A program made the translations under genes and the position numbers. A stretch of DNA of 64,000 bases from Patiria pectinifera (Eukaryota; Echinodermata; Asteroidea; Valvatida; Asterinidae): assembly GCA_029964075.1 (NCBI GenBank), contig CM057142.1, forward strand, positions 35,962,392-36,026,391. The letters are read 5' to 3'. A model generated the notes under the pieces. The model made no database searches. It was given only the letters and a program-made list of their open reading frames with translations, and was not told the origin of the DNA. Positions within the stretch are counted from its first letter, which is position 1. Every line of letters begins with the position of its first letter. This document shows positions 1,504 through 56,355 of the stretch, piece by piece.

Positions 1504-3800
1504 CATAAAACCAGAAAATTATCGAGAGAAATTGATATTAGGTCGTTTTACACTCCATTGATACATTTAAACATACATTAATATGTAAATGAATTAACTC
1601 ATGCCTTTAATACAACGCGGGTTAGTTCAAAACTAAAAACGCTAGCAATTACATTCATATTCATATTAATAACGTGCATATTCTTAACATGTGCTTTGCA
1701 TTTTCACAGGTATCGACGTAAAAAGTACTAATAGCTACTTCAAGAGCTGCAATATAATTTATTTTATTTTTTTGTAGGTTTTTAGTATTTTTTGTTAACA
1801 GCATGTTTAACTATCATTCTAATTACACTTCTTTAATGCAGTTTGTCAAAACTATTTTTGTGCTTGTCGTTGACTATACTTCGATATTGATTTCTGTTTG
1901 TTCCATGTCGACGAGCAGTAATTCTCAACGTCATTTTCTAATAAACTCATTCTACGTGCTTTATACTTTTACGTTTAATTCCTTGTAAAAAGATTATTGT
2001 TTTGACTTTAATGTAGCCCGTATATTTACACATCCAAAAATTAAAACGCACAATATTACATCTACAGGTATAATTTATGTAATAACTCATTATACATTGA
2101 TATATCGAATTATCGCTATAGTGTAATGACTGAAATCGCTGATGATAGCCATATCACACTAAATGATTTAACACCAGGCTTTTATCTTGAAAGCCATCGC
2201 CAAATAGAAAACCTATCGGCCCAGCTCATGTACTGTAACCAAGTGGCTGTTGACTCGATAGTTTAAACTACTTCAACAGCCCATGCATGTACACATATTT
2301 AATCCTTTCTTTATTAACTTGAATTTTTTTTATACCATATGTATTTTGTATCATAATGCACCCCACTCCTTTTGTAATGATGTTATAGTATTTTGTGTGT
2401 GAATCAATTGAATTGAATTGAATTGAACTGAATTATATTTCCAGCAAATATCTTAGGAAAATTGAAAATTTCTGAGGTATACAAAGTATCTAAAAATAGC
2501 GTTTCTCGGAATTGTTACTAGCCAGTAATCACGTCTCACTCATGTTCTAGGAACTCGGGGAAATCCCTTTTTACGAAGATAAAGGTTTCCATTTCAGTAA
2601 GTCATGTTGAACGGTGTTCGGCCAATTCAGTAGCACCAGGCAAGGAAATTGGCCCTTTGAGCGCTTTTAGAAATAATTCTTAATCATCCGATTTTCAATT
2701 GCATTTGGGATGGTGAATCAGCAGCTCACACTATATTCAAAGTAAGGAGCAGTGATAACAAATGCAACCAAGGTATAGCTAATTTGTCTCATAGTTTGCA
2801 AAATATTCATTACTTTGCCAATGCTTTCCAGAGGAAATTAACATACCCCTAACCAAGCTATTTATTCAATTACTATTAAATTTGTTTTCTTGTGATTCTT
2901 GGTATGACGCAATTTAAGCTGTTCGGATGAGTTTAGGTTGTTTATTGACCAGCGACTACTTCTCTCTTCTGAGTTTATAAGAGAGTGAAATGACGGGACT
3001 TTAAATATTCAGGCTAGTTCGGTTAGCTTTCGCCGTTGTTATTGCTAATATGTTTGACTCTGGAAACACTTTAAAAGTATCTTTTCCGTTTCGAAGATAA
3101 AGTATGTAAATGTCAAAGTTTTTTATGAATAAGGCCAAGGGATGGTATCGAAGGGAATAATTACTGTGCTTTGTATTATTTGTCTTCCACCGAATACTAA
3201 AACTTGAATAATTATACGGCAAAGTCGAGCATGAATTTCTACTCATTGCCCCGTGAATATAATATTAAGTAAGCACTTTAGGGATAAAGTAAAACATATA
3301 TAAACGATCTATTTATACTAGATAGAGCGTTCTAAAAAATTCTCATGCCAAGCGTATTTCGTAAAAATACAAGCTTTGGGTTTTCCCTGTGGAAAGTTAA
3401 TATTTTTGCGCAACTCCGCATTGCAGATATGCACGGGCTCAATGCTAACAAGTTTAGAGTTTTTTTTCGTGCAGCCTGGTTACACAAAAAAATAGATATA
3501 TTTCAATATATTCCATACTTCAAGAAAAGTTGAATTGGGAAATCAGACATGGTTGAACTGGGGGCCAATAGAAATTGTGAATGTAATTTTTTGGCGAACT
3601 TATGCAAAGAAAAATCACACCTGTTTATTAGCATTCATCACTATATACATTTGTAATATTTTTGAGGTAAGCATCGCCTTCCACAATCCCTACCAGTTTC
3701 ATATGGCCATTTCAGATTTCCTATTGTCAACGTTAATTAGAATAGGCATTCACCTAGGAATGTTCTTCTCTATATCTTCAGCTACGATATAAAATTTTAA

Positions 3801-3984
3801 GAGGGTCCTAAATTTGTCCGTCGGAGACTCGCTTTCTGGGGGCTGAGAAATGGGAATTTATGCACTGGGACTGGGTTTCATGATAATAAAAAATAGAAAA
3901 ACGGGAATGAGATTTTTAAGCTGTACTGAGATTTGGGTAAAATTGGGGCTGAGAAATGGGATTAGAATTCCCCTTAAGGACTGT
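3801..3984 (+). mobile_element. Diverged copy of GAGGGTCC MITE
   Basis: This block is related to 21156-21349 and 62887-63073. It shares the middle (GCACTGGGACTGGG, GAGATTTGGGTAAAATT) and the decayed ends GAGGGTCCT and CCCCTTAAGGACTG. It is a short non-autonomous element without coding capacity, older than the arm copies. Confidence 0.6.
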
Positions 3985-4260
3985 ATTTTAGTTAAAGATG
4001 ATTCAGCTAATCCTAGGCTTAACTTGCTTTGCGTAATTTAACAGTTTTAAATGTTATGATTTTCTGTCTTTATATTACGTTTACTCGCCGAAAACTGTAT
4101 TGCGGGACACGCTGAAGTGGACGTGGTCCAATATCAAAACATGCTGCATTTGTTAAAGCTCCTTATCACCGTACAAAATCGCGCCTAGTTAGATCAGTTT
4201 TTTTAAATGACTATATTGGTTAATTTCTTCCAGATTAAATCTGAGCACAAAAAAGCCAAA

Positions 4261-4456
4261 CTAAGCCAAACTTTCTATTTTAAGTGATGAACTAGATAAA
4301 AGACAATCCAAATAGGACACTTGCATAATTGCGTCATGAACCTTCACTACCAGAATCCCTTGCGCACTTTCCTTTGTTTGGTTTATTAAAATATTGTCTT
4401 TCTTGTTCTCATGAAACAATACAAATTTGAACGTGAAAGAAAATTCTTGAAGTGTT
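4261..4456 (-). CDS. Possible last exon of the FHA-like gene
   Basis: This open block ends in TAG at 4261-4263 and is preceded on the minus strand by a branch-point-like TTCTAATAC and an AG acceptor. A donor-like CAG/GTTTTA lies at 4740/4739, just after the last repeat unit, and its phase 2 matches the start of this block. The encoded segment (QEFSF..., HEN, QGILVVKVHD, IMQVSY) is conserved at protein level in 24876-25009 and 59239-59372, which supports a real exon. The array frame meets a TGA at 4880-4882, before this donor, so it is open whether the exon is translated in this allele. I do not recognise the domain. Confidence 0.45.
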
Positions 4457-4739
4457 CTGGTATTAGAAGTCAAATGATGCAATCATGCAAACGTCCTATT
4501 TTGATAGACCTCTTGCATTCATTCTTAATTTTAAAAGGAAAGGATTCCTTCTTCTTGATGATTGCAGGAAATTTTACATATTTTGGGGGTTTTTTTTGCC
4601 ACAGCTACAAAACTAAAAATTTAAACACGTGACTATGAACATCATATTCAAATTAAAATGAAGTCAAGATAATGCAGATATCCAATTAATACTACTGGAA
4701 GATGTCGCGCATTTTATCTCAGACTGATTCGAATAAAAC

Positions 4740-7700
4740 CTGAATCCAGTTTGGAAATCACCAGCTTTGATGTTTATTGCTTTGGACTGTTTGGATGATG
4801 AGCCCTCAACTTCAAAATCTCCTGCTTTTACACTTGCAATAGTTGTCTTCTCTCCAGTATGTACGTCCTTGTCTTGTCTGAATCAAGTCTGGAAATCGCC
4901 AGCTTTAACGTCTATAGCTTTGGAATTTTTTGAAGTTGAGCCACAAACTTCAAACTCTCCTGCTTTAACCCGCCCTGATGTTGTCTTCTCTCCAGTACTG
5001 GCGTCCTCGTCTTGTTTCAATCCTGTATGGAAATCGCCAGCTTTCACGTCTATAGCTTTGGAATGTTTTGAAGTTGAGCCACAAACTTCAAACTCTCCTG
5101 CTTTAACCCGCCCTGATGTTGTCTTCTCTCCAGTACTGGCGTCCTTGTCTTGTTTCAATCCTGTATGGAAATCGCCAGCTTTCACGTCTATAGCTTTGGA
5201 ATGTTTTGAAGTTGAGCCACAAACTTCAAACTCTCCTGCTTTAATCCGCCCTGATGTTGTCTTCTCTCCAGTACTGGCGTCCATGTCTTGTTTCAATCCT
5301 GTATGGAAATCGCCAGCTTTCACGTCTATAGCTTTGGAATGTTTTGAAGTTGAGCCACAAACTTCAAACTCTCCCGCTTTAACCCGCCCGGATGTTGTCT
5401 TCTCTCCAGTACTGGCGTCCTCGTCTTGTTTCAATCCTGTATGGAAATCGCCAGCTTTCACGTCTATAGCTTTGGAATGTTTTGAAGTTGAGCCACAAAC
5501 TTCAAACTCTCCCGCTTTAACCCGCCCGGATGTTGTCTTCTCTCCAGTACTGGCGTACTCGTCTTGTTTCAATCCTGTATGGAAATCGCCAGCTTTCACG
5601 TCTATAGCTTTGGAATGTTTTGAAGTAGAGCCACAAACTTCAAACTCTCCTGCTTTAACCCGCCCTGATGTTGTCTTCTCTCCAGTACTGGCGTCCATGT
5701 CTTGTTTCAATCCTGTATGGAAATCGCCAGCTTTCACGTCTATAGCTTTGGAATGTTTTGAAGTTGAGCCACAAACTTCAAACTCTCCTGCTTTAACCCG
5801 CCCTGATGTTGTCTTCTCTCCAGTACTGGCGTCCTTGTCTTGTTTCAATCCTGTATGGAAATCGCCAGCTTTCACGTCTATAGCTTTGGAATGTTTTGAA
5901 GTTGAGCCACAAACTTCAAACTCTCCTGCTTTAACCCGCCCTGATGTTGTCTTCTCTCCAGTACTGGCGTCCTCGTCTTGTTTCAATCCTGTATGGAAAT
6001 CGCCAGCTTTCACGTCTATAGCTTTGGAATGTTTTGAAGTTGAGCCACAAACTTCAAACTCTCCTGCTTTAACCCGCCCTGATGTTGTCTTCTCTCCAGT
6101 ACTGGCGTCCTTGTCTTGTTTCAATCCTGTATGGAAATCGCCAGCTTTCACGTCTATAGCTTTGGAATGTTTTGAAGTTGAGCCACAAACTTCAAACTCT
6201 CCTGCTTTAACCCGCCCTGATGTTGTCTTCTCTCCAGTACTGGCGTCCTTGTCTTGTTTCAATCCTGTATGGAAATCGCCAGCTTTCACGTCTATAGCTT
6301 TGGAATGTTTTGAAGTTGAGCCACAAACTTCAAACTCTCCTGCTTTAACCCGCCCTGATGTTGTCTTCTCTCCAGTACTGGCGTCCTCGTCTTGTTTCAA
6401 TCCTGTATGGAAATCGCCAGCTTTCACGTCTATAGCTTTGGAATGTTTTGAAGTTGAGCCACAAACTTCAAACTCTCCTGCTTTAACCCGCCCTGATGTT
6501 GTCTTCTCTCCAGTACTGGCGTCCTTGTCTTGTTTCAATCCTGTATAAAAATCGCCAGCTTTCACGTCTATAGCTTTGGAATGTTTTGAAGTTGAGCCAC
6601 AAACTTCAAACTCTCCTGCTTTAACCCGCCCTGATGTTGTCTTCTCTCCAGTACTGGCGTCCTCGTCTTGTTTCAATCCTGTATGGAAATCGCCAGCTTT
6701 CACGTCTATAGCTTTGGAATGTTTTGAAGTTGAGCCACAAACTTCAAACTCTCCTGCTTTAACCCGCCCTGATGTTGTCTTCTCTCCAGTACTGGCGTCC
6801 TTGTCTTGTTTCAATCCTGTATGGAAATCGCCAGCTTTCACGTCTATAGCTTTGGAATGTTTTGAAGTTGAGCCACAAACTTCAAACTCTCCTGCTTTAA
6901 CCCGCCCTGATGTTGTCTTCTCTCCAGTACTGGCGTCCATGTCTTGTTTCAATCCTGTATGGAAATCGCCAGCTTTCACGTCTATAGCTTTGGAATGTTT
7001 TGAAGTTGAGCCACAAACTTCAAACTCTCCTGCTTTAACCCGCCCTGATGTTGTCTTCTCTCCAGTACTGGCGTCCTTGTCTTGTTTCAATCCTGTATGG
7101 AAATCGCCAGCTTTCACGTCTATAGCTTTGGAATGTTTTGAAGTTGAGCCACAAACTTCAAACTCTCCTGCTTTAACCCGCCCTGATGTTGTCTTCTCTC
7201 CAGTACTGGCGTCCTTGTCTTGTCTGATTCTAGTCTGGAAATCGCCAGCTTTCACGTCTATAGCTTTGGAATGTTTTGAAGTTGAGCCACAAACTTCAAA
7301 CTCTCCTGCTTTAACCCGCGCTGATGTTGTCTTCTCTCCAGTACTGGCGTCCTTGTCTTGTTTCAATCCTGTATGGAAATCGCCAGCTTTCACGTCTATA
7401 GCTTTGGAATGTTTTGAAGTTGAGCCACAAACTTCAAACTCTCCTGCTTTAACCCGCCCTGATGTTGTCTTCTCTCCAGTACTGGCGTCCATGTCTTGTT
7501 TCAATCCTGTATGGAAATCGCCAGCTTTCACGTCTATAGCTTTGGAATGTTTTGAAGTTGAGCCACAAACTTCAAACTCTCCTGCTTTAACCCGCCCTGA
7601 TGTTGTCTTCTCTCCAGTACTGGCGTCCTTGTCTTGTTTCAATCCTGTATGGAAATCGCCAGCTTTCACGTCTATAGCTTTGGAATGTTTTGATGTTGAG

Positions 7701-10430
7701 CCACAAACTTCAAACTCTCCTGCTTTAACCCGCCCTGATGTTGTCTTCTCTCCAGTACTGGCGTCCTTGTCTTGTCTGATTCTAGTCTGGAAATCGCCGG
7801 CTTTTACGTCTATAGCTTTGGAATGTTTTGAAGTTGAGCCACAAACTTCAAACTCTCCTGCTTTAACCCGCCCTGATGTTGTCTTCTCTCCAGTACTGGC
7901 GTCCTTGTCTTGTTTCAATCCTGTATGGAAATCGCCAGCTTTCACGTCTATAGCTTTGGAATGTTTTGAAGTTGAGCCACAAACTTCAAACTCTCCTGCT
8001 TTAACCCGCCCGGATGTTGTCTTCTCTCCAGTACTGGCGTCCTTGTCTTGTTTCAATCCTGTATGGAAATCGCCAGCTTTCACGTCTATAGCTTTGGAAT
8101 GTTTTGAAGTTGAGCCACAAACTTCAAACTCTCCTGCTTTAACCCGCCCTGATGTTGTCTTCTCTCCAGTACTGGCGTCCTCGTCGTGTTTCAATCCTGT
8201 ATGGAAATCGCCAGCTTTCACGTCTATAGCTTTGGAATGTTTTGAAGTTGAGCCACAAACTTCAAACTCTCCTGCTTTAACCCGCCCTGATGTTGTCTTC
8301 TCTCCAGTACTGGCGTCCTCGTCGTGTTTCAATCCTGTATGGAAATCGCCAGCTTTCACGTCTATAGCTTTGGAATGTTTTGATGTTGAGCCACAAACTT
8401 CAAACTCTCCTGCTTTAACCCGCCCTGATGTTGTCTTCTCTCCAGTACTGGCGTCCTTGTCTTGTCTGATTCTAGTCTGGAAATCGCCAGCTTTCACGTC
8501 TATAGCTTTGGAATGTTTTGAAGTTGAGCCACAAACTTCAAACTCTCCTGCTTTAACCCGCCCTGATGTTGTCTTCTCTCCAGTACTGGCGTCCTCGTCT
8601 TGTTTCAATCCTGTATGGAAATCGCCAGCTTTCACGTCTATAGCTTTGGAATGTTTTGAAGTTGAGCCACAAACTTCAAACTCTCCTGCTTTAACCCGCC
8701 CTGATGTTGTCTTCTCTCCAGTACTGGCGTCCATGTCTTGTTTCAATCCTGTATGGAAATCGCCAGCTTTCACGTCTATAGCTTTGGAATGTTTTGAAGT
8801 TGAGCCACAAACTTCAAACTCTCCTGCTTTAACCCGCCCTGATGTTGTCTTCTCTCCAGTACTGGCGTCCTCGTCTTGTTTCAATCCTGTATGGAAATCG
8901 CCAGCTTTCACGTCTATAGCTTTGGAATGTTTTGAAGTTGAGCCACAAACTTCAAACTCTCCTGCTTTAACCCGCCCTGATGTTGTCTTCTCTCCAGTAC
9001 TGGCGTCCATGTCTTGTTTCAATCCTGTATGGAAATCGCCAGCTTTCACGTCTATAGCTTTGGAATGTTTTGAAGTTGAGCCACAAACTTCAAACTCTCC
9101 TGCTTTAACCCGCCCTGATGTTGTCTTCTCTCCGGTACTGGCGTCCTTGTCTTGTTTCAATCCTGTATGGAAATCGCCAGCTTTCACGTCTATAGCTTTG
9201 GAATGTTTTGAAGTTGAGCCACAAACTTCAAACTCTCCTGCTTTAACCCGCCCTGATGTTGTCTTCTCTCCAGTACTGGCGTCCTCGTCGTGTTTCAATC
9301 CTGTATGGAAATCGCCAGCTTTCACGTCTATAGCTTTGGAATGTTTTGATGTTGAGCCACAAACTTCAAACTCTCCTGCTTTAACCCGCCCTGATGTTGT
9401 CTTCTCTCCAGTACTGGCGTCCTTGTCTTGTCTGATTCTAGTCTGGAAATCGCCAGCTTTCACGTCTATAGCTTTGGAATGTTTTGAAGTTGAGCCACAA
9501 ACTTCAAACTCTCCTGCTTTAACCCGCCCTGATGTTGTCTTCTCTCCAGTACTGGCGTCCTTGTCTTGTTTCAATCCTGTATGGAAATCGCCAGCTTTCA
9601 CGTCTATAGCTTTGGAATGTTTTGAAGTTGAGCCACAAACTTCAAACTCTCCTGCTTTAACCCGCCCTGATGTTGTCTTCTCTCCAGTACTGGCGTCCTC
9701 GTCGTGTTTCAATCCTGTATGGAAATCGCCGGCTTTCACGTCTATAGCTTTGGAATGTTTTGAAGTTGAGCCACGAACTTCAAACTCTCCTGCTTTAACC
9801 CGCCCTGATGTTGTCTTCTCTCCGGTACTGGCGTCCTCGTCGTGTTTCAATCCTGTATGGAAATCGCCAGCTTTCACGTCTATAGCTTTGGAATGTTTTG
9901 ATTTTGAGCCACAAACTTCAAACTCTCCTGCTTTAACCCGCGCTGATTTTGTCTTCTCTCCTGTATTGGCGTCTTTGTCTTGTCTGAATCTAGTCTGGAA
10001 ATCGCCAGCTTTCACGTCTATAGTTTTGGAAAGTTTTGAAGTTGAGCCACCAACTTCAAACTCTCCTGCTTTTACCTGCGCTGATGTTGTCTTTTTTCCA
10101 GTTTTTGATTCTTTTTGTCTGCTTACACTGGTTAGAAAATCGCCTTTTTGAAATCGTACCGATTTGGAATGCTTTGATCTAGAGCCTTCAAGTTCTAAAT
10201 CTTTTACTCTCACGTTGCCTGAAAATGTCTTTTTGCCAGTCTTAGAGTCTCTTTCTGATCTGATTCCGGTTTTAAAATCCTTTGCATGAAAATCAATTGC
10301 CTTCGTACCTTTGGATGTTGATCCAGAAATACCCACGTCTGCCACCTTAAGGGAACCTGATGTTGATTTTTTTCCAGTGTCTCGGTTTTTGTCTCTTGAT
10401 AGGCCAGCTTCAAGCTCTCCAGCCTTTGCT
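4740..10430 (-). repeat. Coding tandem array, 138-bp unit, about 41 copies
   Basis: The unit is 138 bp (46 codons), for example with start-of-unit sequence at 5027 and again at 5165. Thirty-seven units between about 4891 and 9990 are almost identical. Degenerate units flank them on both sides. The core reads KAGEFEVCGSTSK, then SKAIDVKAGDF, then TGLKQDKDASTGEKTTSGRV. Most variation falls on a few codons: K/E/M (AAG/GAG/ATG, 18/13/6 copies by my count), HTGLK versus QTRIR, and QD versus HD. The QTRIR form occurs at units 5, 12, 17 and 21. The N-terminal units are the most diverged, which suggests growth from the C-terminal side by unequal exchange or conversion. The antisense frame is also open because the unit is a multiple of three. 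Confidence 0.97.
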
Positions 10431-13400
10431 TGAAATGACTTACTTCCTTTTGAAGACGAGACACCTACCGACAAGTCTTTATGTTCCACTGATGCAGAAA
10501 CTCCTCCCTTTCCTAGTGATGTCCCAATTGCAGTGTCTTTTGTTCTGACAGATAGGTTAACGTTTTTGTTTGAAAAGCCAATGCCTACGCTGTTTTCACC
10601 ATCTTGCAATGATCCTGAAAATCCAGACTTGCCACCTGACAGTGAAATCCCTTCGTCCCCATGCTGAGCATTAACACCGACGTTGTCTTTTGATGCGGAA
10701 AATCCAACTCCTGTATCATTTACTTGTACTCCTGCCCCGACACCATCTTTGGCTGCTTTGAGGTTCATGCCAAAGGCAGAGCTGTGCTGAGCAGTTATTC
10801 GAGAGTGTTTCGAGAAGTCAGTGTTGACAGATTTCTTTATGTTCTCAGATACTACTCCTGAAGACGATGCAATGGTTGCTTGATGTTCCATTGACATATA
10901 TTTGTTGCTGGCCTGCTTTCCTAGTTCAAACCCTTTTCTGTCCACACAAATAGAGAATCCTAACGAGGACTGAGATCGATAACTGTGGACTTTCTCTGTG
11001 ATTATATTCTTTGCAAAATCTCCAATATCGCCATCAGCTGTTACTGAAGATCCTTTTAGCTTCAGAGAGCCTACTTGAAACTTGTCTTGGTTTATTGGTC
11101 CCCTGCAATGGATTCCACTTGACTTTTCAACAAATTTGCCAATGTCAGAACTTTGACTACTTCCGAACTTGTTAGGCACAGGAAATCCCTCCATCATGGT
11201 AAATCCAATGCTTGTCGAGCTGTTGGAGGCTTCGATCTCGCTTTGCTTGGAAATAACGTTTAGTTTGTCAATATTTCCAGAAATTCCACCAGTGTCCAAA
11301 TTACATGCATTCAAATTGACGTTCTCTGAATTGGTGAAATGAGTCCTTCCTCGGACTTTTAAGTTCTGATTAACGACCTTCTTTTCTCTTGAACGGGATT
11401 CCTCCACGGATATCCCCAGTTGGTTTATCCCAATATCTACAGACCATTTTTCCATGGAACTTGTGTTATGTAACTCTGCCCCTTCAAAGTTCACATTTTT
11501 GGCATCAATGATCATGGTTCCGACATCCATGGCCATTGCATTTTTCACTTCAAAATTTTGGGCTGATACGACAAAGTTCCCACCAACATCAGTTCTGCAC
11601 CCGGCTAAACGCTGCTGATTGTTTTGCCTGTTCTCTTCTTCAATAGAAAGGCCCTTGTCCAAGGAAAACGAAATTCCACTAGAATGGCTTTGTTCTGAGC
11701 TCGACAATATCCGATCCTTGAATAGAACAGTACCAGCGGCATGAACCATCAGGTCACCACCAACTTGACAATCAGTTCCAATATTGGACACATCTGAGTT
11801 TTGAGAAGAGACACTTAACGATCCACCGGCCTTAAGTGTCGAGGAGTGGTGCTCCTCGGTTCTCTTAACTATCCTCTTCTTGCGAAACCAATTTCTTTTC
11901 ACATGCTCTTCTGTGCGAATGGTGACTTTATCTTGAATCACCACGTCCTTTTTCGCTGAAATGGCAATGTTTTCAGCTGCACTGATTTCTGTTGCGGTCG
12001 CTTTAACGCTTCCTTCTTCTGAAACAATGCCAACACTACCACATTTAGAGGAGATACTTGCTTTCGAAACAGTGGAATAGGAAGATAAATCTTTTGACGA
12101 ACTGAAAAACCCGCCAACTGAAGAAGAACTGGTGTGCTGCGTTTCAATTGGATCGATGGTGACATTCTTCTTAGCCTTCAAGAACGCTCCTTGGTCGCCA
12201 GTAACTGAGCCAGCAGTCATCGAAATGGACCCCTTGTCAGATTGTACACCTGCAAAATTGGTAGCCTCAACATTAGACGAATCCATTGAGACGTTTCCTT
12301 CAGTTGACTGCAAAAAAGTAGAACCTCGTGAACTTATCGAGGAACCACTAACATTCATAGATTGGTTTGAAGTTAGGGACACTCCCTTCTCACAGTGCAC
12401 TCGAGCATTGTCAATTTTCACAGACTTTGCATCTAACTTAAGCTTGTAAGGCTTATCAATGTTGCATCTTGACAAAACAATGTCCTGGTCTTTCACTGCT
12501 AAATCAAGTTGATCAGCAACCTGCAAATCTTGATACACTCCTTCGCCTTTTAGCAAGTTGTTAACTTGATATATTTTGTCGCTTCTTAATGTCAGTTCCT
12601 TGAACCTGTGATCGGCTGTCATTCTTCCTTTTGACTTGTCATGATAAGCGAGGTCAACGCCAGCTTTGCCTTCGATTGTGGTTTTATCTGAGTCGATTTT
12701 TCCGACGAGTTTAGTTTTTCCCTCAGATTGTACTACCAAGGTATCACTGGTAATGTCACCAGCTTGACACACTTCATCTGCAAACATCATCATTACAATG
12801 GCTCTCTTCTCTCTTTTGGTCATGGCAATTTCTTTGGAGGCAACGGCAACACCTACAGCAGATAGAACACCTTCGTCACAGAATACCTCATCAAACAACG
12901 CTTCGTACTCTGAATCGGTAAAGGTAACGCCCTCACTAAAACAGAATGATCCAGATTCCAGGATACCTTCGGTCTTGTTGCTTTTTCTTTTCGATTCAGG
13001 GAAGCCAAACCTTTTCATTATCGATTGAACTCCCTTGATGCCTTTCTTCTTCATCAATTGACGTAGCTGCCTTGCCTTGTGTGGTGTTGCCAGCAGCTTT
13101 TCCTTCAATATGTTGATTTGGATGTATCTCTGACTTTCACTCGTGATGATGAAGACCAGTCTTGGGACGTCAAATGATTCGATGCCGTTCTTCAAAATAT
13201 CTGCCACAAACACGTTGACCATGCTGTACATCTGATCTATTCGTAGCCCAATTTCAGCACTTGCCATACATCCTTTCTTCAAGTCTTCCAATGAGTTTGA
13301 CATATCTCTTGCTTTGTTGTTGGTGTATTCTGATTGAATTTGCTTCAGTGATTCTGCAGCTTTGGACCAGGCTTCAAGGCTCTTGGCGTCAGGAGTACAG

Positions 13401-14661
13401 GAAACATATGCTAGAAACTTGAAGAGCAGGACTGTATTGTTCTCAACCAGCTTGTTTGATTCGAGGGTAGACCCTCCAATGAAACACGTGATGCTTTCTA
13501 ATCTGATCCTTTCTCTTCCAGCCAGTGCACAGCTTGTAACATCATTGACATCAGTTATCTCTTTGCCAGGAAGACTCAATAAAAATGGTGCTTCCAACGA
13601 AGTTACTTGGCCTTTGCAACTGCCACTGTTGACCAGAGCGAGATGGGAAGATAAGCAAACACTGGACCCTTGCAGGGCTGATTCTATTTTTCCAGAGTTG
13701 AGTAGTGCCCATGGTTCTATTTGGAGAGTTAGAAATTCTTCAATCGATCCCGCCATCGTTATCCATTCTCCTTTGATTTCTACTGCCTCGCATGATAAGA
13801 TTCTGCCTTCTTCAGTGAGATGCAAATCCTTTTCTGCGGTTAATTTCAAATCTGAGACATTCTCGATGCTTCCTGACACTTTTATGTTCTTGGCTTCAGC
13901 TTCTAATGATGACTTCTTCCTCCCTGTAGTCAAACCTTCCAGTGAAACCATTCCGTTCTCGCCAGCGGTTATTTTCACATTTTGTAAAACATCTATGCCT
14001 CCTGCTTCTGTCTTCTTTTGCACAAACGCTCTTTCTACATCGACTTCCACACAGCCTACACATTCTAAACCACCACTCAAGGTAAATGTGTCTTCAACAA
14101 TGATGGTAGATAGTTTTTCTTCTCCAGGAGATTGGACACACCTCATTCGTCCTGGAACATGTATTGAAGTTGCCTCGAGACTCACACACTCAATTTCAGA
14201 TACAACGGTGGCCATTTTGCATGACAGAAATACTTCAGAGCATTTGAAGAGACCACCAGTGTTGAATGTAACTTCTCCAATTGACTGATCAATGTGCAGA
14301 ACTTGAATGGCAATTAACCTGCTTGGACCTTCAAAAACAAGGTTTTCTTTACTCGGTACATTTTCACTGACGTTCCGAATCGCAACAAGGTTTGCATGAA
14401 TGGAATCTTTGACCTCAAACGCTGACGCTTTTCCTGCATTGTTGGTGTCTTCACTCTTGTGGAACTGAACAAAGACTTTTCCAAAATGGGATGCTTTTTT
14501 CAACTTCAGGCGTTTGCTGACATTAAAAATGCCTTGAGGCTCGATGCCGACTTCAGAACTGACAATGATGGAGTCAATCGACAAGTGACCATTTTTGCAA
14601 GTTACTTCAAACTTGTCTGGTGAAACAAATGTTTCGCTGATTTCACCTTTTCCACCGAGAG
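4880..14661 (-). CDS. FHA/CdiA-like giant repeat protein, main exon
   Basis: Numbering follows the 3233-residue open frame that begins at 14584. The frame stays open upstream to an AG acceptor after a pyrimidine-rich tract at about 14662-14680. Residues 1-380 form a haemagglutinin-type beta-helix (repeated VSGSIENVSDLKLTAEKDL-like rungs). Residues 385-620 are a helical, Lys-rich insert without beta rungs. Residues 630-1250 return to beta-helix and contain haemagglutinin-repeat signatures: HTSSSSVGGFFSSSKD, GSVGIVSEEGSVKA, NIAISAKKDVVIQDKV, LKAGGSLSVSSQN, HSSGISFSL. Residues 1270-1385 are Gly-rich short repeats, then the 46-residue array runs to the end. In bacteria this fold makes long secreted adhesins and contact-dependent inhibition stalks. 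No toxin domain is visible at the C-terminus. The function in the host is unknown. The frame differs from that of the preceding block, and I found no convincing donor for the acceptor at 14662. Confidence 0.85.
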
Positions 14662-16826
14662 CTGAAAATGAAAATGTGACTGGGAATGAATATACAGATA
14701 TTTGTCAACGTAGACTCGCCCAGACAATATGGTTGCGTCAGTCGCAGATACATCTATGAGAAGATTTGGCGAAGATTTTATGACTCCTTTCCCGTTTGAC
14801 AGGATTTCTGATTTGATTTTCAGGTCCCCTTCACATCGGATGGTTCCACTGTTCATGGCCGTTTTTTTGCAGTTGATGCAAAGCTCTCTGTTGCTTACGA
14901 TTCTCCCTTCTTCCTCTTGCTTCAGCTCAGCAAGGTCCAAAGTAAGACCGTTTGACGATTCTATCACTCCCTTCTCGTTTGACAGGATTTCCGATTTGAC
15001 AAACAGGCCTCCTTCACATCTGATGGTTCCACTGTTCAAAGCCCCTTTTCTGCAGGTGATGTAAAGCTCTCTGTTGCTTACAATTCTCCCTTCTTCCTCT
15101 TGCTTCAGCTCAGCAAGGTCCAAAGTAAGACCGTTTGACGATTCTATCACTGTTGATGTTTTGTCCATGGCAGCAGGCAATAGTTCTATCCTGCCGCTAT
15201 TGTTCAACGACTTGGCTTGGATAGCTAAATCTGTTGCGAACACTTGCAACTTTCCATGGACTGACATCTGCTCTTCAGACGAAACACTTGCCGATACAGG
15301 CGAATCGATGATGTTGTTATTTTCTTTGTCTCGAGGACCACTGCACGTCATAACCGAGTCAGCACTGATTTCCAAAGTTCTCGAAATGACATTCACTGTG
15401 TGTGCTTGTAGTTCTCCATTCCAAGCACACGTAAGATCAGCGATTGAACCAGGCATTGTGCAAACAGACGCTGTTATTCCATTGATACCTTTGGCATGCA
15501 ACTCCCCAAACAAAACAAAATTGGAAATCTCGCTCGTTTCTGTGGCTTCTAGATTCAAGTCCCCTTCTTCCAAGATCAGTGTTTGATTGACAACCAGTTG
15601 AGCACTGCTTCCAAAGAACTCGACATCACATGCTGATGCAATACACATGGCGTCACAAGAAACTTTCTTTTTTAGCTGAATGAAGAGATGTTCGTCCACG
15701 TGAACATAACCAAACCAACTATTTTCTTGTCCATCGCGCAAGGCCAACAACAGATCACCGTTACTGATGATCCCTCCTTCTCTTTCTTGCTTCAGCTCAC
15801 CAACGTCCAGGACAAGATTGCCTTCGCTGACAATAAAGTTCTGGTTTTCACAGACTTCACCACAGTGCAGTTGTCCACCTTCCTTGATCCCAAGAGTGGA
15901 TGTTTTGGAGATTAGGACGTTTCCAAGAACTTGAAGTTCTTTAAAGCCTCTTAACATTGCGTTATCGTAGAACAGCAAATCTCCTCTGATGAGGCCACTA
16001 ACAGTTCCGGAGATCCACGTCCAAGGCTTAACAACACTAACTGAGCCTTTAACGTCAAAGCGCAAGAAGTTTCCTTGTAACTGCGAGCAGTCATATATAT
16101 CATGATGCACGATGCATTCGATAGAAGCTGCTCGAATCACGCCATGCTTCCACTCAAACGTGGCCAGGCAACCTCGTATGATTTCTTTCTTGTGTTGCTC
16201 TTTGTCCGCATAGGCATGCTTGTGCTTCCCTCTGCCACAGACTGCACGGAATTCCTCTTGAATGCTTTTTCCATGAATTCTAACGGCTGGATCTATTTCT
16301 TCGTTTACAATCGATACGAAATCATCGCATTCCAGATTTTGAACCGCTCGAAACATTCGTGAATCATTAAAAGAAGAGATTTTCTTTGGTCGTGCTTCAA
16401 TATGGTTTAGATTGCCCGTCTCTTTCTGTAAAGAGATGAAACTGTCGAAACCCCTCTGCGCTGTATCATGTTTGGAATCTGAGCATAGCATTAGATTTTG
16501 GGACTTTAACTTGAGATAATCTTGTGCACACATTGAACCAAAGTTTGTTAAATTGCCATTCTCAATGTCCACATTTAGTCTTTTTGTCAGGTTTGCATTC
16601 TTTGTAGGTGTACTTGCAGCATCGATCTCCTGGCCTAATACCCCGTCTACATTGACGTGAAGATCCCCAGTACCTATCCTGACAGTCAGGCATTTTTCTT
16701 CATCAAATGGTCCACATGTGACTGTACCGTTAATGAATACATCACCTTGATCTTCTGTATTGGTTCGGAAGGATGTACATCTTAAAACAGCTCCGGTGTC
16801 AACATAGATGTCACTACGATCTGTGC
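14602..16826 (-). CDS. FHA-like gene, exon 3 (beta-helix rungs)
   Basis: An acceptor (TTGTATTTTGTACTAG) ends at 16827 and the exon opens with GTDRSDIYVDTG. The preceding exon ends in phase 1, giving a clean GGC codon at the join. About 740 residues follow with the FHA-type rung pattern N-SG-I-x-x-GxLxxx-x-xLxNxGxI, seen for example as LNSGTIRCEGGLFVKSEIL. Two 61-residue copies near the end (VIESSNGLTLDLAELKQEEE...) are almost identical, and a third is diverged. The open frame stops at 14602, and the protein pattern appears to continue in another frame from 14661. There is no signal peptide in or before this exon. Bacterial FHA N-termini carry a secretion domain that I do not see here. Confidence 0.8.
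14782..15150 (-). repeat. In-exon duplication, 183-bp unit, two copies
   Basis: The blocks at about 14782-14966 and 14965-15150 are near copies (for example TTTGACAGGATTT, GATGGTTCCACTGTTC, GCTCTCTGTTGCTTAC and CAGCTCAGCAAGGTCC recur). The length of 61 codons keeps frame and adds beta-helix rungs to the FHA-like protein. It is a smaller, separate expansion from the 138-bp array. Confidence 0.9.
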
Positions 16827-17104
16827 CTAGTACAAAATACAAAAGGTGTATGGGTATAAAAAATGGTGTACTAAGCAGGTAACATGTTTCAACAAAAATG
16901 TATAAAACATGCACTCCAAAACGTACCATAGAATACCATCCCTCTTTCCCTCCCTGCCTGCCTCCCTCTCTCTCTCCGAGTCTCCCCCCTTCCTACCCTC
17001 CCTGCCTGCCTCCCTCTCCCCCTTCCTCCCTCCTTCCTTCCGTCTCTCCCTCCCTCCCTCCGTCCCTCCCTCCATCCATCTATCCATCTTTGATTACTTC
17101 TTAC
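16827..17104 (-). other. Intron 2 with TCCC-rich microsatellite
   Basis: The donor AAGAAG/GTAAGAAG lies at 17105/17104 and the acceptor at 16827. Phases on both sides agree. The intron carries a low-complexity (TCCC/TCTC)n tract at about 16935-17085 on the plus strand, which is GGGA-rich in the transcript. Long open frames over this tract are artefacts of composition. Confidence 0.8.
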
Positions 17105-17348
17105 CTTCTTTACGGACGACCCTCACTGAAACATCCCTGATCTCAAGAGGATGTGATGACATCCTTGATGTTCCATGGGATACCAACTCCAGCTTCATCC
17201 CATCTGTAGTTTTGTCGTACTGTGATTTGTTAGTTGTGATGTTTGGTCCAGTGAGTGTAAAGTGTTTTAGACTCTTGAAAGTAGACTCCATCAGACTGGT
17301 CTTGATGAAGTCCCGTTGAGGTTCAATCGATATCTTTATCTTGTCGTC
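17105..17348 (-). CDS. FHA-like gene, exon 2
   Basis: This 244-bp exon follows acceptor CTTCAG/GACGAC and ends at donor GAAG/GTAAGAAG. It enters in phase 0 and leaves in phase 1, matching both neighbours. It encodes about 81 residues (DDKIKISIEPQRD..., FTLTGPNITTN, EIRDVSVRVVRKEG). I do not recognise a family. It may be an N-terminal module added to the bacterial-type beta-helix. Confidence 0.75.
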
Positions 17349-18095
17349 CTGAAGGAAAAAAAATCTTACCATTATTTATAATTAATACTGAGCGCGCCGA
17401 GCAGGGCTTACCTAAACACCTGGAGTTCTTGGCATTTATAAGGAAATCCGTTAAAAAGGGAAGGCAAAACGAAAAAAGGTAAAAATGGTGCGCACTTTCC
17501 CCTCTCTCCATCAGTGCTCTGTTTTAAGAGAATTCAAAGCAGAAGCTACGCGAATAAGAGAGAAGTTGAAAAAGACGAAACCGACGGTGCGCACTTTTCC
17601 CCCTCACTCCATCAGTGCTCTATTTTAACAGTATTTAAACCTGAAAATACACGAGTAAGACAAAGGTCGAAAAGGATGGAGCTGACGGTGCGCACTTTTT
17701 TCCCCTCTCTCCATCAGTACCTCTGTTTTAACAGTATTTAAAGTTGTTAAGCTACACGGATAAGATAAAGGTCGAAAGGGACGAAACCAACGGTGCGCAC
17801 TTTACCCCCTCTCTCCATCAGTGCTCTATTGAAGAGTATTCAAAGCTAAAGCTACACGAATAAGAGAGAAGTCGAAAAAGACGATTGTGCGCACCTTAAC
17901 CCTCTCTTCATCAGTGCTCTGTTTTAAGAGTATTTAAAGCTGAAGCTAAATGCATTACAGGAAAGTCAAAACAAAAGTGGAGATCTGAGGATCAAACCAT
18001 GGACTGCTTGCTCGGGAGGCTGCGCACTACTACGCTTGCTGTTATCAAGGTAAGTGTTATTGCGTTGTAACTCCCAGCTTTTTCATATTTTGTAC
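17349..18095 (-). other. Intron 1 with ~100-bp minisatellite
   Basis: Five diverged copies of a 93-105-bp unit fill 17475-17960. GTGCGCAC occurs at about 17488, 17587, 17688, 17793 and 17886, each followed by a pyrimidine run, CTCCATCAGTGCTCT-like sequence and a purine-rich part. The intron lies between phase-0 exons with good splice sites. Confidence 0.75.
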
Positions 18096-18446
18096 CTGGA
18101 CATTCGCTCTTCCGACTGGGATGTAACATTTGCAGAAGGTACCCTGTCTGTTTAGAAAATCGCTAACAATAAATGAATGATTTTCCAACCTGATCAAATG
18201 ATCAAATGGAAAGAACTGCTGAAATACCTTTTCATGATTGGTCAAGCTAAGTAAGTAAGGCTTGCCAAATCCTGGCCGTGGGTATGACAGTTCAATCTTC
18301 CATCCTCTTCTCAACTCCTTCTGTATCCGTATCGAGTTCTCGTGATTTTCCTCGGGTATCCAAACTGTCATATGATGCCCATTTTCTATGGTTAGGTTGC
18401 CAGTACTGTACGGACCACTTTTTACGGTGACTCCCAGCTCCTCCAT
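18096..18446 (-). CDS. FHA-like gene, first coding exon
   Basis: The ATG at 18446 has A at -3 and G at +4. The 27 bases before it in the exon contain in-frame stops, so translation should begin here. A strong acceptor (TTTCTTTTTCTTTCAG) at 18474 shows that a 5' untranslated exon lies further upstream, and a donor-like CA/GTAAGG at 18525/18524 would give a 51-base intron. The donor at the 3' end is CCAG/GTACAA, phase 0, matching exon 2. The 117 residues begin MEELGVTVKSGPY and are hydrophilic, without a signal peptide or membrane segment. Unless another start is used, the product would be cytosolic or leave by an unusual route. The domain is not recognised. Confidence 0.7.
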
Positions 18447-18527
18447 ATTTTGTTATGTAGGCTATGGGCGAATCTGAAAGAAAAAGAAATTGTGTTCAGT
18501 TTTGCCTATTCGCCAGAACCTTACTGA

Positions 18528-19499: not shown

Positions 19500-19925
19500 G
19501 ATTTTTTTTTAATCTGGTTTAAAGCTAGGAAAGTAAAAGGTATCCACAAAAAAAAAGAAAGACGAAGAAAAAAATGAGAAAGAAAAGGAAAGAAAAGGAA
19601 AGAAAAAAAAAGTAAAAAAAAGGTAATAAAGAAGATAAAAAGTTAACAAAGAAAAAGATACAAAAGATAAAAAAAGAAAAAAGAAATGGGAAAAAGAAAA
19701 AAGAAGAACGAAAAAAAGAAAAAAAAAAGAAAGAAGAAAAAAAGAAAAAAGAAAAAAGAAAATAGGATGAAGAAAAAAAGAAGAAAGAAAGAAGGAAGAA
19801 GGAAGAAGAAAGAAACACGAAACAAGAAAAAGAAGAAAGAAAGAGAAAGAAGAAAAATGAAAAAAGAAAAGGGGAAAAAGAAAATAGAGAATAGAAAAAA
19901 GAAAAAAAAATTAAAGAAAGAAGAC
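19500..19925. repeat. Purine-only tract, GAAA/AAGA-rich
   Basis: About 400 bases are almost entirely A and G on the plus strand, with few interruptions. Open frames in all phases across it are compositional. Such tracts can form triplex DNA and are prone to length change. It lies just outside the left arm of the inverted repeat. Confidence 0.9.
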
Positions 19926-31249: not shown

Positions 31250-32350
31250 CACTTTTCTGCTATCTAAGCAGTCACGGACAGTGAAAATGCACTTCCGCTT
31301 CCCTGCTATACTCAACGTAGGGGTTTCAGTTTACGTGTTCTACTCGGCCGTTCTGCAAAGTGTTCACCAAACGTTAGTATGGGGTGACTTTGAGTAAATA
31401 TTTTTGTCCATGGTGCGTGGCCACCAAAGTGTCCTATTCTTTCATATGCTTCGCTTGCCGCCCCTGCGCCAAGAGTGCAACGAATACTCCAAGAAGGACT
31501 ACATTAGTATGCCTAGCGCGGTCTGACCAATCGAAAGCCTACACTGCGTGGTACTTCCCGGCTATGCGTAAAACCGTCACTGGCAACGCGTACTGCAGCC
31601 TGCTCCACACCCTGGAAACGAGGTTGAGTCTACGGTGCTCGCTATTTGAAGCGCAAGCATGTGACGTCGCGTGATAGAAGTGCTGTTGTGTGTCCCTATT
31701 CTTTCATATGCTTCGCTTGCCGCCCCTGCGCCGAGTGCAACGAATACTCAGAAGGACTACACATTAGTATGCCTAGCGCGGTCTGACCAATCAGTCTACA
31801 CTGCGTGGTACTTCCCAGCTATGCGTAAAACCGTCACTGGCAACGCGTACTGCAGCCTGCTCCACACCCTGGAAACGAGGTTGAGTCTACGGTGCTCGCT
31901 ATTTGAAGCACAAGCATGTGACGTCGCGTGATAGAGTGCTGTTGCTTCCATAATGTGTTTACAGCTCCATGCTTCCACGAGCTCTATGCTTCACCAAGGC
32001 TGAGCGTTGTGAAGTTCGCCTTTGCACGTCTAGTCAGTGTCGCGTTATAATTTCGGGGGCCTGTTTGGGATCAACGAAGGGTCGATGCATTGCCTCAAAT
32101 ATTGCGATCTTGAACGCAGTCACAAAAAAAATCGACAAAACGGATCGCCGGTCCGTACGGAAAAATTAGGACGACCTGAAAAGTGCTTGATTTGGCGGAA
32201 AAAAATTCTCCGTATTTTCTATGGACGTGGAGCCATTTTGGCGTCGAGGGAGACCGCGGTCTCGGAACCTTTCAGGAGCGAACATTTCTCGAGGCCGAGT
32301 AAAACTTGCTCTTATAGGCCGTCAGCTGAAACTCAAAAACCGGCTGTAAA
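31250..32350. promoter_or_regulatory. CpG-dense block (left arm)
   Basis: CpG density rises sharply over about 1.1 kb. It includes the duplicated block at 31428-31945, a GCCATTTTGGCG site and the perfect palindrome GAGACCGCGGTCTC at about 32248. It resembles an animal CpG-rich promoter, but no coding exon can be tied to it. Confidence 0.35.
31428..31945. repeat. Tandem duplication, 265-bp unit (left arm)
   Basis: Two near-identical copies start at about 31431 and 31696 (CCTATTCTTTCATATGC). Each carries a CRE-like TGACGTCGCGTGA, a CCAAT box (TGACCAATC) and a GC-box-like GCCGCCCCTGCGCC in the same order. The two frames covering it (96 and 86 codons) follow from the duplication and show no family. 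Confidence 0.85.
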
Positions 32351-45235: not shown

Positions 45236-45812
45236 GATCCACACACAAAAAACCCAAAGGTGTACTTGACATATCACACTGTGTCCATCTGGATAATTCC
45301 CGTCCTTCGGTGGCTGCATGCAAAAACAACCCGACACAATTACATAGGTTCAGGTGTCTCGAATCTGGAAATACCCAGCTTACATGAGAGGCGGAAACAT
45401 AAAACTTGCACTGAAAAATACAGGGGTCATTATTGACTTTGCATATAGCATGTCTTTCACGCACGTAGAGTCAGAGCATTATAACAAATGATGACAACGG
45501 CACGGATTGAAAGTGACGCACCTATATTTAGAAATCCTGTTATTTCCCGGATTATTCCGCCCCTAGACCTCAGCTTCAGTGTTCCATGGGCCCTAGGCTT
45601 CCTGCACCTAATTCATGTTTAGGGGCCATTCAAAATGTTCAATGTTTTTAAATTTCGATTTGTTTTCCAGATTATTTTGACCCACCCACCCACCCCCAAT
45701 TTCGATTTATAAAAAAATGATTTATATCATGCAGTACAGTATTAAAAATACAAGTATACTTGAACATGTACATGTACATGTATACCCGTACCCATGTACA
45801 TGTGTGTCCAGT
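45236..45812 (+). repeat. Older copy of right-arm 53955-54525
   Basis: The run from CCAAAGGTGTACTTGACATA through CCGTCCTTCGGTGGCTGCAT, CATGTCTTTCACG, GGATTATTCCGCCCCTAGAC and the CCCACCCACCCACCCCC run to ACATGTACATGTATACCCG matches the right arm in order and orientation. Confidence 0.85.
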
Positions 45813-52319: not shown

Positions 52320-52850
52320 TGGAAGCAACAGCACTCTATCACGCGACGTCACATGCTTGTGCTTCAAATAGCGAGCACCGTAGACTCAACCTCGTTTCCA
52401 GGGTGTGGAGCAGGCTGCAGTACGCGTTGCCAGTGACGGTTTTACGCATAGCTGGGAAGTACCACGCAGTGTAGACTTTCGATTGGTCAGACCGCGCTAG
52501 GCATACTAATGTGTAGTCCTTCTGAGTATTCGTTGCACTCGGCGCAGGGGCGGCAAGCGAAGCATATGAAAGAATAGGGACACACAACAGCACTCTATCA
52601 CGCGACGTCACATGCTTGCGCTTCAAATAGCGAGCACCGTGGACTCAACCTCGTTTCCAGGGTGTGGAGCAGGCTGCAGTACGCGTTGCCAGTGACGGTT
52701 TTACGCATAGCCGGGAAGTACCACGCAGTGTAGACTTTCGATTGGTCAGACCGCGCTAGGCATACTAATGTGTAGTCCTTCTGAGTATTCGTTGCACTCG
52801 GCGCAGGGGCGGCAAGCGAAGCATATGAAAGAATAGGGACACTTGGTGGC
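52320..52850. repeat. Tandem duplication with CRE/CCAAT/GC box (right arm)
   Basis: Counterpart of 31428-31945, with a period near 259 bp. In plus orientation each copy reads CGACGTCAC, then GATTGGTCAG, then GGGGCGGCAAG. Confidence 0.85.
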
Positions 52851-53967: not shown

Positions 53968-54245
53968 TCACACTGTGTCCATCTGGATAATTCCCATCCT
54001 TCGGTGGCTGCATGCAAAAACATCCCTACATAGGTTCAGGTGTCTCGAATCTGGAAATACCCAGCTTACATAAGAGGCGGAAACATAAAACTTGCACTGA
54101 GAAATACAGGGGTCATTACTGACTTTGCATATAGCATGTCTTTCACGTACGTAGAGCCAGAGCATTATAACAAATGATGACAACGGCTCGGATTGAAACT
54201 GACGCAACTATATTTAGAAATCCTGTTATTTCCCGGATTATTCGG
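53968..54245 (-). repeat. Module with TTCCAGATTCGAG (right arm)
   Basis: Counterpart of 30050-30310 and the closest relative of the spacer copy at 45280-45560. Confidence 0.7.
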
Positions 54246-54439
54246 CCCCTAGACCTCAGCTCCAGTGTTCCATAGGCCCTAGGCTTCCTGCACCTAATTC
54301 ATGTTAAGGGGCCATTCAAAATGTTCAATGTTTTTAAAGTTTGATTTGTTTTCCAGATTATTTTGACCCACCCACCCACCCCCAATTTCGATTTATAAAA
54401 AAAACTTATTTATATCATGCAGTATTAAAAATCCAAAAA

Positions 54440-55489: not shown

Positions 55490-55862
55490 AGACTTCTTTT
55501 AGCTTTCGAGGCCGTCGACGTGAACCCCCGACATTTTACCCACCGTTTTAAGTCTTCTACGCCGTTGTCGTTTACAACGGTGCAGGGTAAATTTGCCACC
55601 TCCACCGAATCCACAGTGTGTTTCACGACAGTGTCTGCCATCTTTTATTTGATCCCCACTTTTCTCCCACAATGCACAGCGGTAAACCTTGTGTGACGGC
55701 GTGGATTCTGGTGTCTCCTATCTGGAATTCCCGACTTTCTATACGTGACGATTGGCAACACAAAAGTGCTGAGGTCATTATTGACTTTGCAGTTTTGATA
55801 ACCGCACCCGTTTTGAGCAATCCTGTAATTTCCCGGATTATTCCGCCCGTAGATCTCATCTC
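55490..55862 (-). promoter_or_regulatory. Promoter-like sequence, counterpart of 28407-28800
   Basis: The ZNF143-like GCATTGTGGGA is kept, but the YY1-like core has changed (AAAGATGGCAGA). The frame over it is only 78 codons here, against 129 in the left arm, so coding is unlikely. Confidence 0.3.
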
Positions 55863-55900
55863 CCTTTGATTATAAAAGAGCGCGCCAGGTAGGTTCTCTA
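55820..55900 (+). promoter_or_regulatory. TATA module (right arm)
   Basis: GGATTATTCCGCCC is followed by TATAAAAG (55871-55878) and AGCGCGCC. Transcription would run towards the short exon at 56356. Confidence 0.45.
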
Positions 55901-56355
55901 TCAGTTTCCATTTAGACCATACAGCTATGCGTGGTGGTTTACAAACTACGCAGTTGTGTCAGAGGGATCAGCGTGAACTGTAGCACTCGGCTAAGGGAGC
56001 CTTCTTTCTGACGAGTGATCATACGGAAAGAAAACAATTTTATCATCTGCTTTATGTAGGTTTCGTCTTTTGTTAAATTAATTTGAAAGTTATTATTCTT
56101 ATCCAATGGAAAATAATTTGGAGGATAATTTGGAAACTGCTAGTATCGTATTTTAGAATGTGTTTTGAAATAGGAAATTTCATCTGAGATAAATTGTTTT
56201 AAGCAAAACTCAGAAGATCGTGTTGACGTCTCCCCGCAACAACGCTATCGTCCGGTGGGGATTTTGACATTTCTCGCAAAGCGAATTTTGTGATATATGT
56301 TTTGTTTAGTCTTATAGTGATGTGATTGCATTATTTATGTTTTTGACTACTTCAG

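Follow-up and report, generated by a model that had tools for sequence, protein, structure and literature searches.

To our knowledge, animals have few bacterial genes that are at once old, large and structurally remodelled, and most of the well-known examples are enzymes or toxin domains. The described systems closest to the locus analysed here include the bacterial two-partner-secretion (TPS) exoproteins, including filamentous haemagglutinin (FHA), HecA and CdiA, and the teneurins. PMC3482391 describes teneurins as RHS-repeat proteins of animals with kinship to bacterial polymorphic toxins; they act as extracellular signalling molecules and retain an inactive toxin-derived C-terminal domain. 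Our locus lies in contig CM057142.1 of assembly GCA_029964075.1 (Patiria pectinifera), within a stretch of 64,000 nucleotides (the window) whose minus strand carries a giant, intron-split gene. It is probable that this gene stems from an old acquisition of bacterial haemagglutinin repeats, turned by domestication into a leaderless beta-solenoid protein of giant size and handed down through Cnidaria. We found no report of the family in open-licence PubMed Central papers.

Haemagglutinin repeats and the link to bacteria

The coding exons run from 18446 to 18228, from 17348 to 17105 and from 16826 onwards, and all three are supported by homology in tblastn alignments of relatives. The features are listed below in window coordinates (aa, amino acids; TRF, Tandem Repeats Finder); P0008 is from Montipora foliosa and P0004 is another relative.

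18228-18446, minus strand: coding part of exon A, 73 aa, ATG at 18446; tblastn, P0004 70%, P0008 55%
17349-18227, minus strand: intron 1, 879 bp, holding a 101-bp minisatellite; boundaries from homology, repeat from TRF
17105-17348, minus strand: exon B, 81 aa plus 1 base, phase 0 to phase 1; tblastn, P0004 76%, P0008 65%
16827-17104, minus strand: intron 2, 278 bp, with a low-complexity repeat
14677-16826, minus strand: first part of exon C, predicted beta-helix, phase 1 start; tblastn, P0004 73% over 632 aa
16162-16464, minus strand: alpha-helical insert within the beta-helix; its predicted fold is ankyrin-like
14774-15151, minus strand: in-frame tandem duplication in exon C, 183 bp, 2.1 copies (TRF)
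14659-14677, minus strand: frame break; the spacing of two conserved blocks differs from that in P0004 by a length that is not a multiple of three
10319-14659, minus strand: second part of exon C, 1447 aa including the haemagglutinin-repeat region; P0004 77%, Clytia 52%
11213-11632, minus strand: best Fil_haemagg_2 stretch (PF13332; hmmscan)
4743-10102, minus strand: tandem array, 138 bp (46 aa), 38.8 copies, 96% matches (TRF)

A first-pass annotation had quoted two peptides as haemagglutinin-repeat signatures. Both are present on the minus strand, HTSSSSVGGFFSSSKD at 12136-12089 and NIAISAKKDVVIQDKV at 11971-11924, inside an open reading frame (ORF) of 3273 codons that spans 14704-4883. Profile scans bore out the affinity. 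With the tandem array left out, PF13332 scored 25.3 bits over five stretches (curated cut-off 22; hmmscan), and TIGR01731, the haemagglutinin-type beta-helical repeat, scored 23.8 bits in the first part of exon C (curated cut-off 18), where no stretch passes alone. Because TIGR01731 exceeds its cut-off there, kinship with haemagglutinins may extend beyond the profile-matched part. On the whole 3273-aa ORF, PF13332 was not listed at E ≤ 1. Six of the seven animal-type sequences scanned exceeded the PF13332 cut-off (the window gene, P0008, P0016, P0026, P0030 and P0031), and P0029 fell narrowly under it at 21.7.

To search beyond the range of single sequences, we scored 7987 candidates with a profile of five animal-type sequences, P0029-P0031 among them. 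Among the matches listed, at least 65 proteins matched at E ≤ 1, comprising 27 of cnidarian type and 38 with PF13332; the best of these 38 had an E value of 1.3e-18, and 19 reached E ≤ 1e-3. Named bacteria account for 22 of the 38 (Xanthomonas, Vibrio, Raoultella, Rhizobium, Fusobacterium, Azoarcus, Salmonella and Dickeya), and 14 of the remaining 16 contain the TPS domain PF05860. On local rescoring, all 38 matched the profile at E < 1e-3 (million-entry database), as did none of their reversed and none of their shuffled versions; the 38 had been preselected by the same profile, and the new information lies in these two controls. A tree was built from 38 of 52 rows, 13 of animal type and 25 of bacterial type, and in it a single branch with support of 100/97 set the animal rows apart. 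The 14 rows dropped (animal P0026 and 13 bacterial-type) had a best domain that failed to cover the model core. Judged from sequence profiles, the link to bacterial haemagglutinin-repeat proteins is strong.

Among other domain assignments, relatives carry precomputed PF25296, PF19954, PF27386 and PF16538. A precomputed PF21628 on P0008 was not reproduced by our own scan at E ≤ 0.1. We also rejected PF05638 (T6SS_HCP), which scored 117 bits on the 3273-aa ORF, as an artefact: sub-threshold matches in the array were summed, and no stretch passed alone.

Relatives across Cnidaria

Residues 15-1450 of the 3273-aa ORF served as query in a single-sequence search that scored the 7982 candidates with the most words in common. 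At E ≤ 0.01 it returned 26 relatives, from species that include Montipora foliosa, Clytia hemisphaerica, Paramuricea clavata (two) and Dendronephthya gigantea. The profile search added Acropora digitifera and P0032, which is 96% identical to the Clytia protein. Clytia represents Hydrozoa, Montipora Hexacorallia and Dendronephthya Octocorallia; Paramuricea and Acropora we also take to belong to Cnidaria. Identity to the 1447-aa stretch of the window gene was 77% for P0004, 59% for Montipora foliosa, 52% for Clytia hemisphaerica and 38-50%, in pieces, for octocorals. The first-pass annotation had considered an FHA-like gene unusual for an animal; related animal genes were found in Hydrozoa, Hexacorallia and Octocorallia, and in all three groups they match over the whole coding part. 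P0004 and P0032 may be transcript-derived, a point on which their sources are silent.

The distant relatives P0029-P0031 have the repeat region in common with the gene at 25-30% identity, and P0029 also shares the N-terminal part. A midpoint-rooted maximum-likelihood tree with 28 rows resolved two groups, each supported at 100/100: one of octocorals with 10 rows and one of Montipora with 12. Clytia lay outside both, with P0029-P0031 farther out, and the window copy paired with P0004 (94/96). Judged from this one gene, the window would come from a cnidarian or from a near relative of cnidarians. As a gene tree, this topology would be compatible with vertical descent and does not contradict it.

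Gene layout, repeat tail and predicted structure

Exon A begins at 18473, just after an acceptor AG, and an in-frame TAA at 18455-18453 stands directly before the ATG. The tblastn matches of P0004 and P0008 to this exon stop at 18228, before a GT at 18227 in the donor context AAG|GTATTT. The P0004 alignment covers 18446-18228, 17351-17103 and 16824 onwards, and that of P0008 covers 18446-18228, 17345-17103 and 16821 onwards. Exon B and the start of exon C are backed by P0004, P0008 and P0026; the match of P0016, from Clytia, is a few residues shorter. The exon joins proposed at first pass thus held for the starts of exons B and C, whereas the end of exon A, placed at 18096, had to be moved to 18228: the 44 extra residues are absent from P0004, P0008 and P0016. 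The proposed intron phases, 0 and then 1, agree with the tblastn boundaries. The reported intron repeats are also real, consisting of the minisatellite of intron 1 (101 bp x 4.6 copies, 17487-17948) and a purine-rich repeat in intron 2 (16939-17077), both found by TRF. Four coral-type gene models, P0009, P0012, P0013 and P0038, open with a stretch ending FPGCND that stands just before the same Gly codon as the start of exon C. Because this stretch reads like an intron end, the position of intron 2 appears to be conserved in the four models.

Exon C spans ∼12 kb, with one frame open until near 14670 and another thereafter. Within its 183-bp duplication, two window stretches match overlapping P0004 residues (tblastn). 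The array forms the last 5.36 kb of the exon. Its units are spaced by exactly 46 aa in 37 of 37 cases, and a period of 46 or its double leads in all 14 cnidarian-type tails, that of the window included. Tail periods elsewhere are 20 (P0030), 52 (P0031) and a faint 34 (P0029). The C-terminal third of P0029 (residues ∼2920-4282) is without the 46-residue array, and its 34-residue periodicity has an identity of 0.11 against 0.07 by chance. Opposite the array, the plus strand holds open frames at 6549-10151 (1200 codons) and 4737-6548 (603 codons); these are no evidence of a gene, because the repeat unit is stop-free in that frame.

The AlphaFold models of 14929-16824 and 10760-12862 had a mean predicted local distance difference test score of 84.4 and 93.2, respectively, and contain the beta-helix fold of a long passenger. 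The sequence of the ankyrin-like insert scored under the Pfam cut-off in P0031 and gave no match in the window segment or the P0029 segment. Searched by sequence against solved structures, the window region had no match at E ≤ 1, and a full-length profile (A1) returned one row, an AI-designed barrel at E 0.18.

Elsewhere in the window, a tRNA scan found none, a codon-bias scan for neighbouring genes gave no clear signal, and seven further ORFs, the only ones checked for a TpsB-type neighbour, had no Pfam match above cut-off. A long A/G-rich microsatellite lies upstream of the gene (19548-19924). A peptide beginning IIREITG was seen by eye three times in minus-strand frames (45460-45612, 54146-54298 and 55626-55958), suggesting an interspersed repeat. 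Two two-copy tandem duplications of 257 bp and 259 bp (31429-31944 and 52326-52842), ∼21 kb apart, look related by eye.

Origin of the gene and comparison with known systems

Several results weigh against a bacterial acquisition. None of the 26 matches in the single-sequence search with the window ORF was bacterial, and none of 22 in a search with the Clytia region was named as such. Among the profile matches listed, 9 of the 28 known relatives (P0004-P0031) were missing, including the profile members P0029-P0031 themselves, and 17 of the 26 relatives from the single-sequence search carry PF13332 in precomputed annotation. Profile A1 matched 24 of the 38 PF13332 proteins, 17 of them at E < 1e-3, and the matched part covers ∼500 of its 3225 positions, at about 1650-2150; the remainder of the protein may be animal-made. 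Long branches meet at the animal/bacterial split of the tree, which yields neither donor nor direction. A tblastn search of plasmids for a donor gave one weak row (E 0.3), and among 227 pattern matches in genome contigs and 75 in viral contigs no donor locus was confirmed. With Foldseek, neither structural model matched at E ≤ 0.001. Because the top rows of the N-terminal model were tied (HMW1 15.5, EtpA 15.2, Hbp 15.1, an antifreeze protein 14.7), its predicted fold is a generic beta-helix. In the 37 full array units we counted 19 replacement and 12 silent variant types against 297 and 95 opportunities (p 0.078), which at most suggests constraint within the array. Finally, the coding length matched by tblastn contains a single frame break.

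Some of these points would suit convergence, in which a native animal beta-helix gene came to look like bacterial haemagglutinin repeats: the rungs of a beta-helix are repetitive, a bacterial match is lacking for most of the protein, and neither the single-sequence searches nor the plasmid search found a bacterial relative of note. We nevertheless regard convergence as highly improbable, given that all of the at least 65 profile matches at E ≤ 1 (of 7987 candidates) were of cnidarian type or carried PF13332, that reversed and shuffled controls were silent in 38 of 38 cases each, and that PF13332 passed its cut-off in six of seven animal-type sequences. At the other extreme, it hardly merits belief that the gene is a contaminant or was transferred very recently from a bacterium associated with corals. 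The repeat domain is of bacterial type and Vibrio coralliilyticus is among the profile matches, but the gene has two introns, its relatives range from Clytia to Montipora at 52-59% identity, and the collections searched held no close bacterial match. The old horizontal transfer proposed at first pass is in part supported, by the strong profile link and by a tree that does not contradict vertical descent.

The product also differs from what had been proposed, an FHA/CdiA-type exoprotein. No hydrophobic stretch resembling an N-terminal Sec signal was detected by hydropathy in exon A or in the N-termini of four relatives. The TPS domain PF05860 had no match in the window pieces, P0008, P0016, P0026, P0029, P0030 or P0031, and no toxin or pre-toxin domain was listed at E ≤ 1 for the 3273-aa ORF, which ends in the 46-aa array. 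Because a signal-peptide-like stretch and the TPS domain are absent, the product, as read from its sequence, is not strictly an FHA and is not to be filed with FHA/CdiA exoproteins despite one homologous domain. Non-classical export, with the protein acting like FHA as an adhesive filament on the cell surface or within mucus or mesoglea, would fit the homology to adhesin-type repeats and EtpA as the top structural row; we consider it unlikely, since neither the window gene nor the four relatives have a hydrophobic N-terminal stretch and no TPS domain was found.

A further question is the state of the window copy, which could be a recently broken pseudogene or paralogue of a family that is alive elsewhere, and this would be compatible with an old acquisition. 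The frame breaks between 14677 and 14659 although P0004 is continuous across the site, and the assembled product would terminate soon after. An intron there was ruled out, as P0004 is unbroken through conserved residues on both sides. In addition, a TGA at 4885-4883, with ∼140 bp of the 138-bp array still to come, closes the 3273-codon frame. Yet there is one break only, beyond it 3273 codons are open and match P0004 at 77% identity along 1447 codons, and an assembly error also yields a single indel. Loss of this copy is thus a distinct possibility against which we lean. Because a single break is followed by so long an open frame, the choice lies between a very recent loss of the copy and an assembly error at a single point. 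The description of the gene as maintained accordingly stands for the family and not, as a certainty, for the window copy.

Under the acquisition that we favour, an ancestor would have acquired the haemagglutinin-repeat beta-helix from a bacterial exoprotein of the two-partner-secretion (FHA/CdiA) type, a bacteria-to-animal direction that we infer. The gene, with two N-terminal exons of its own, the ankyrin-like insert and the 46-residue repeat tail, would then have been inherited through Cnidaria. If leaderless, as its sequence suggests, the product is probably intracellular. There the beta-helix could form a long beta-solenoid rod, the ankyrin-like insert could be a docking site for a partner, and the array could serve as a spacer whose length varies between species. 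More tentatively, and at somewhat less than even confidence, we propose that the stalk was captured before the cnidarian radiation and, joined with ankyrin-like repeats, became a giant leaderless intracellular scaffold. The ancestor was possibly older still, because P0029-P0031 share the repeat region and P0029 the N-terminal part as well. The adopted part would be the beta-helical stalk itself, minus its export parts, retained since hydrozoans and corals separated. Clytia and several corals can be cultivated and manipulated, which would give access to the role of an adhesin-type filament inside animal cells.

Compared with FHA, HecA and CdiA, the animal gene is alike in its PF13332 repeats, predicted beta-helix, great protein length and profile match. 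It differs in having no Sec-signal-like N-terminus, no PF05860 and no toxin domain found, and in possessing introns together with its own N-terminal segment, the ankyrin-like insert and the 46-aa repeat tail. Unlike in ankyrin-repeat proteins, the insert is short and degenerate. The nearest precedent for the proposed working mode would, by analogy, be the teneurins, with the RHS stalk of polymorphic toxins. As described in PMC3482391, these differ in having an RHS stalk instead of a haemagglutinin beta-helix, and a toxin-derived end that was not found here; they would be alike in that the stalk of a bacterial toxin carrier was adopted at an early stage of animal evolution and put to non-toxic use. 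If our reading is true, the gene would be a second case, beside teneurins, of an animal structural protein derived from a polymorphic-toxin carrier.

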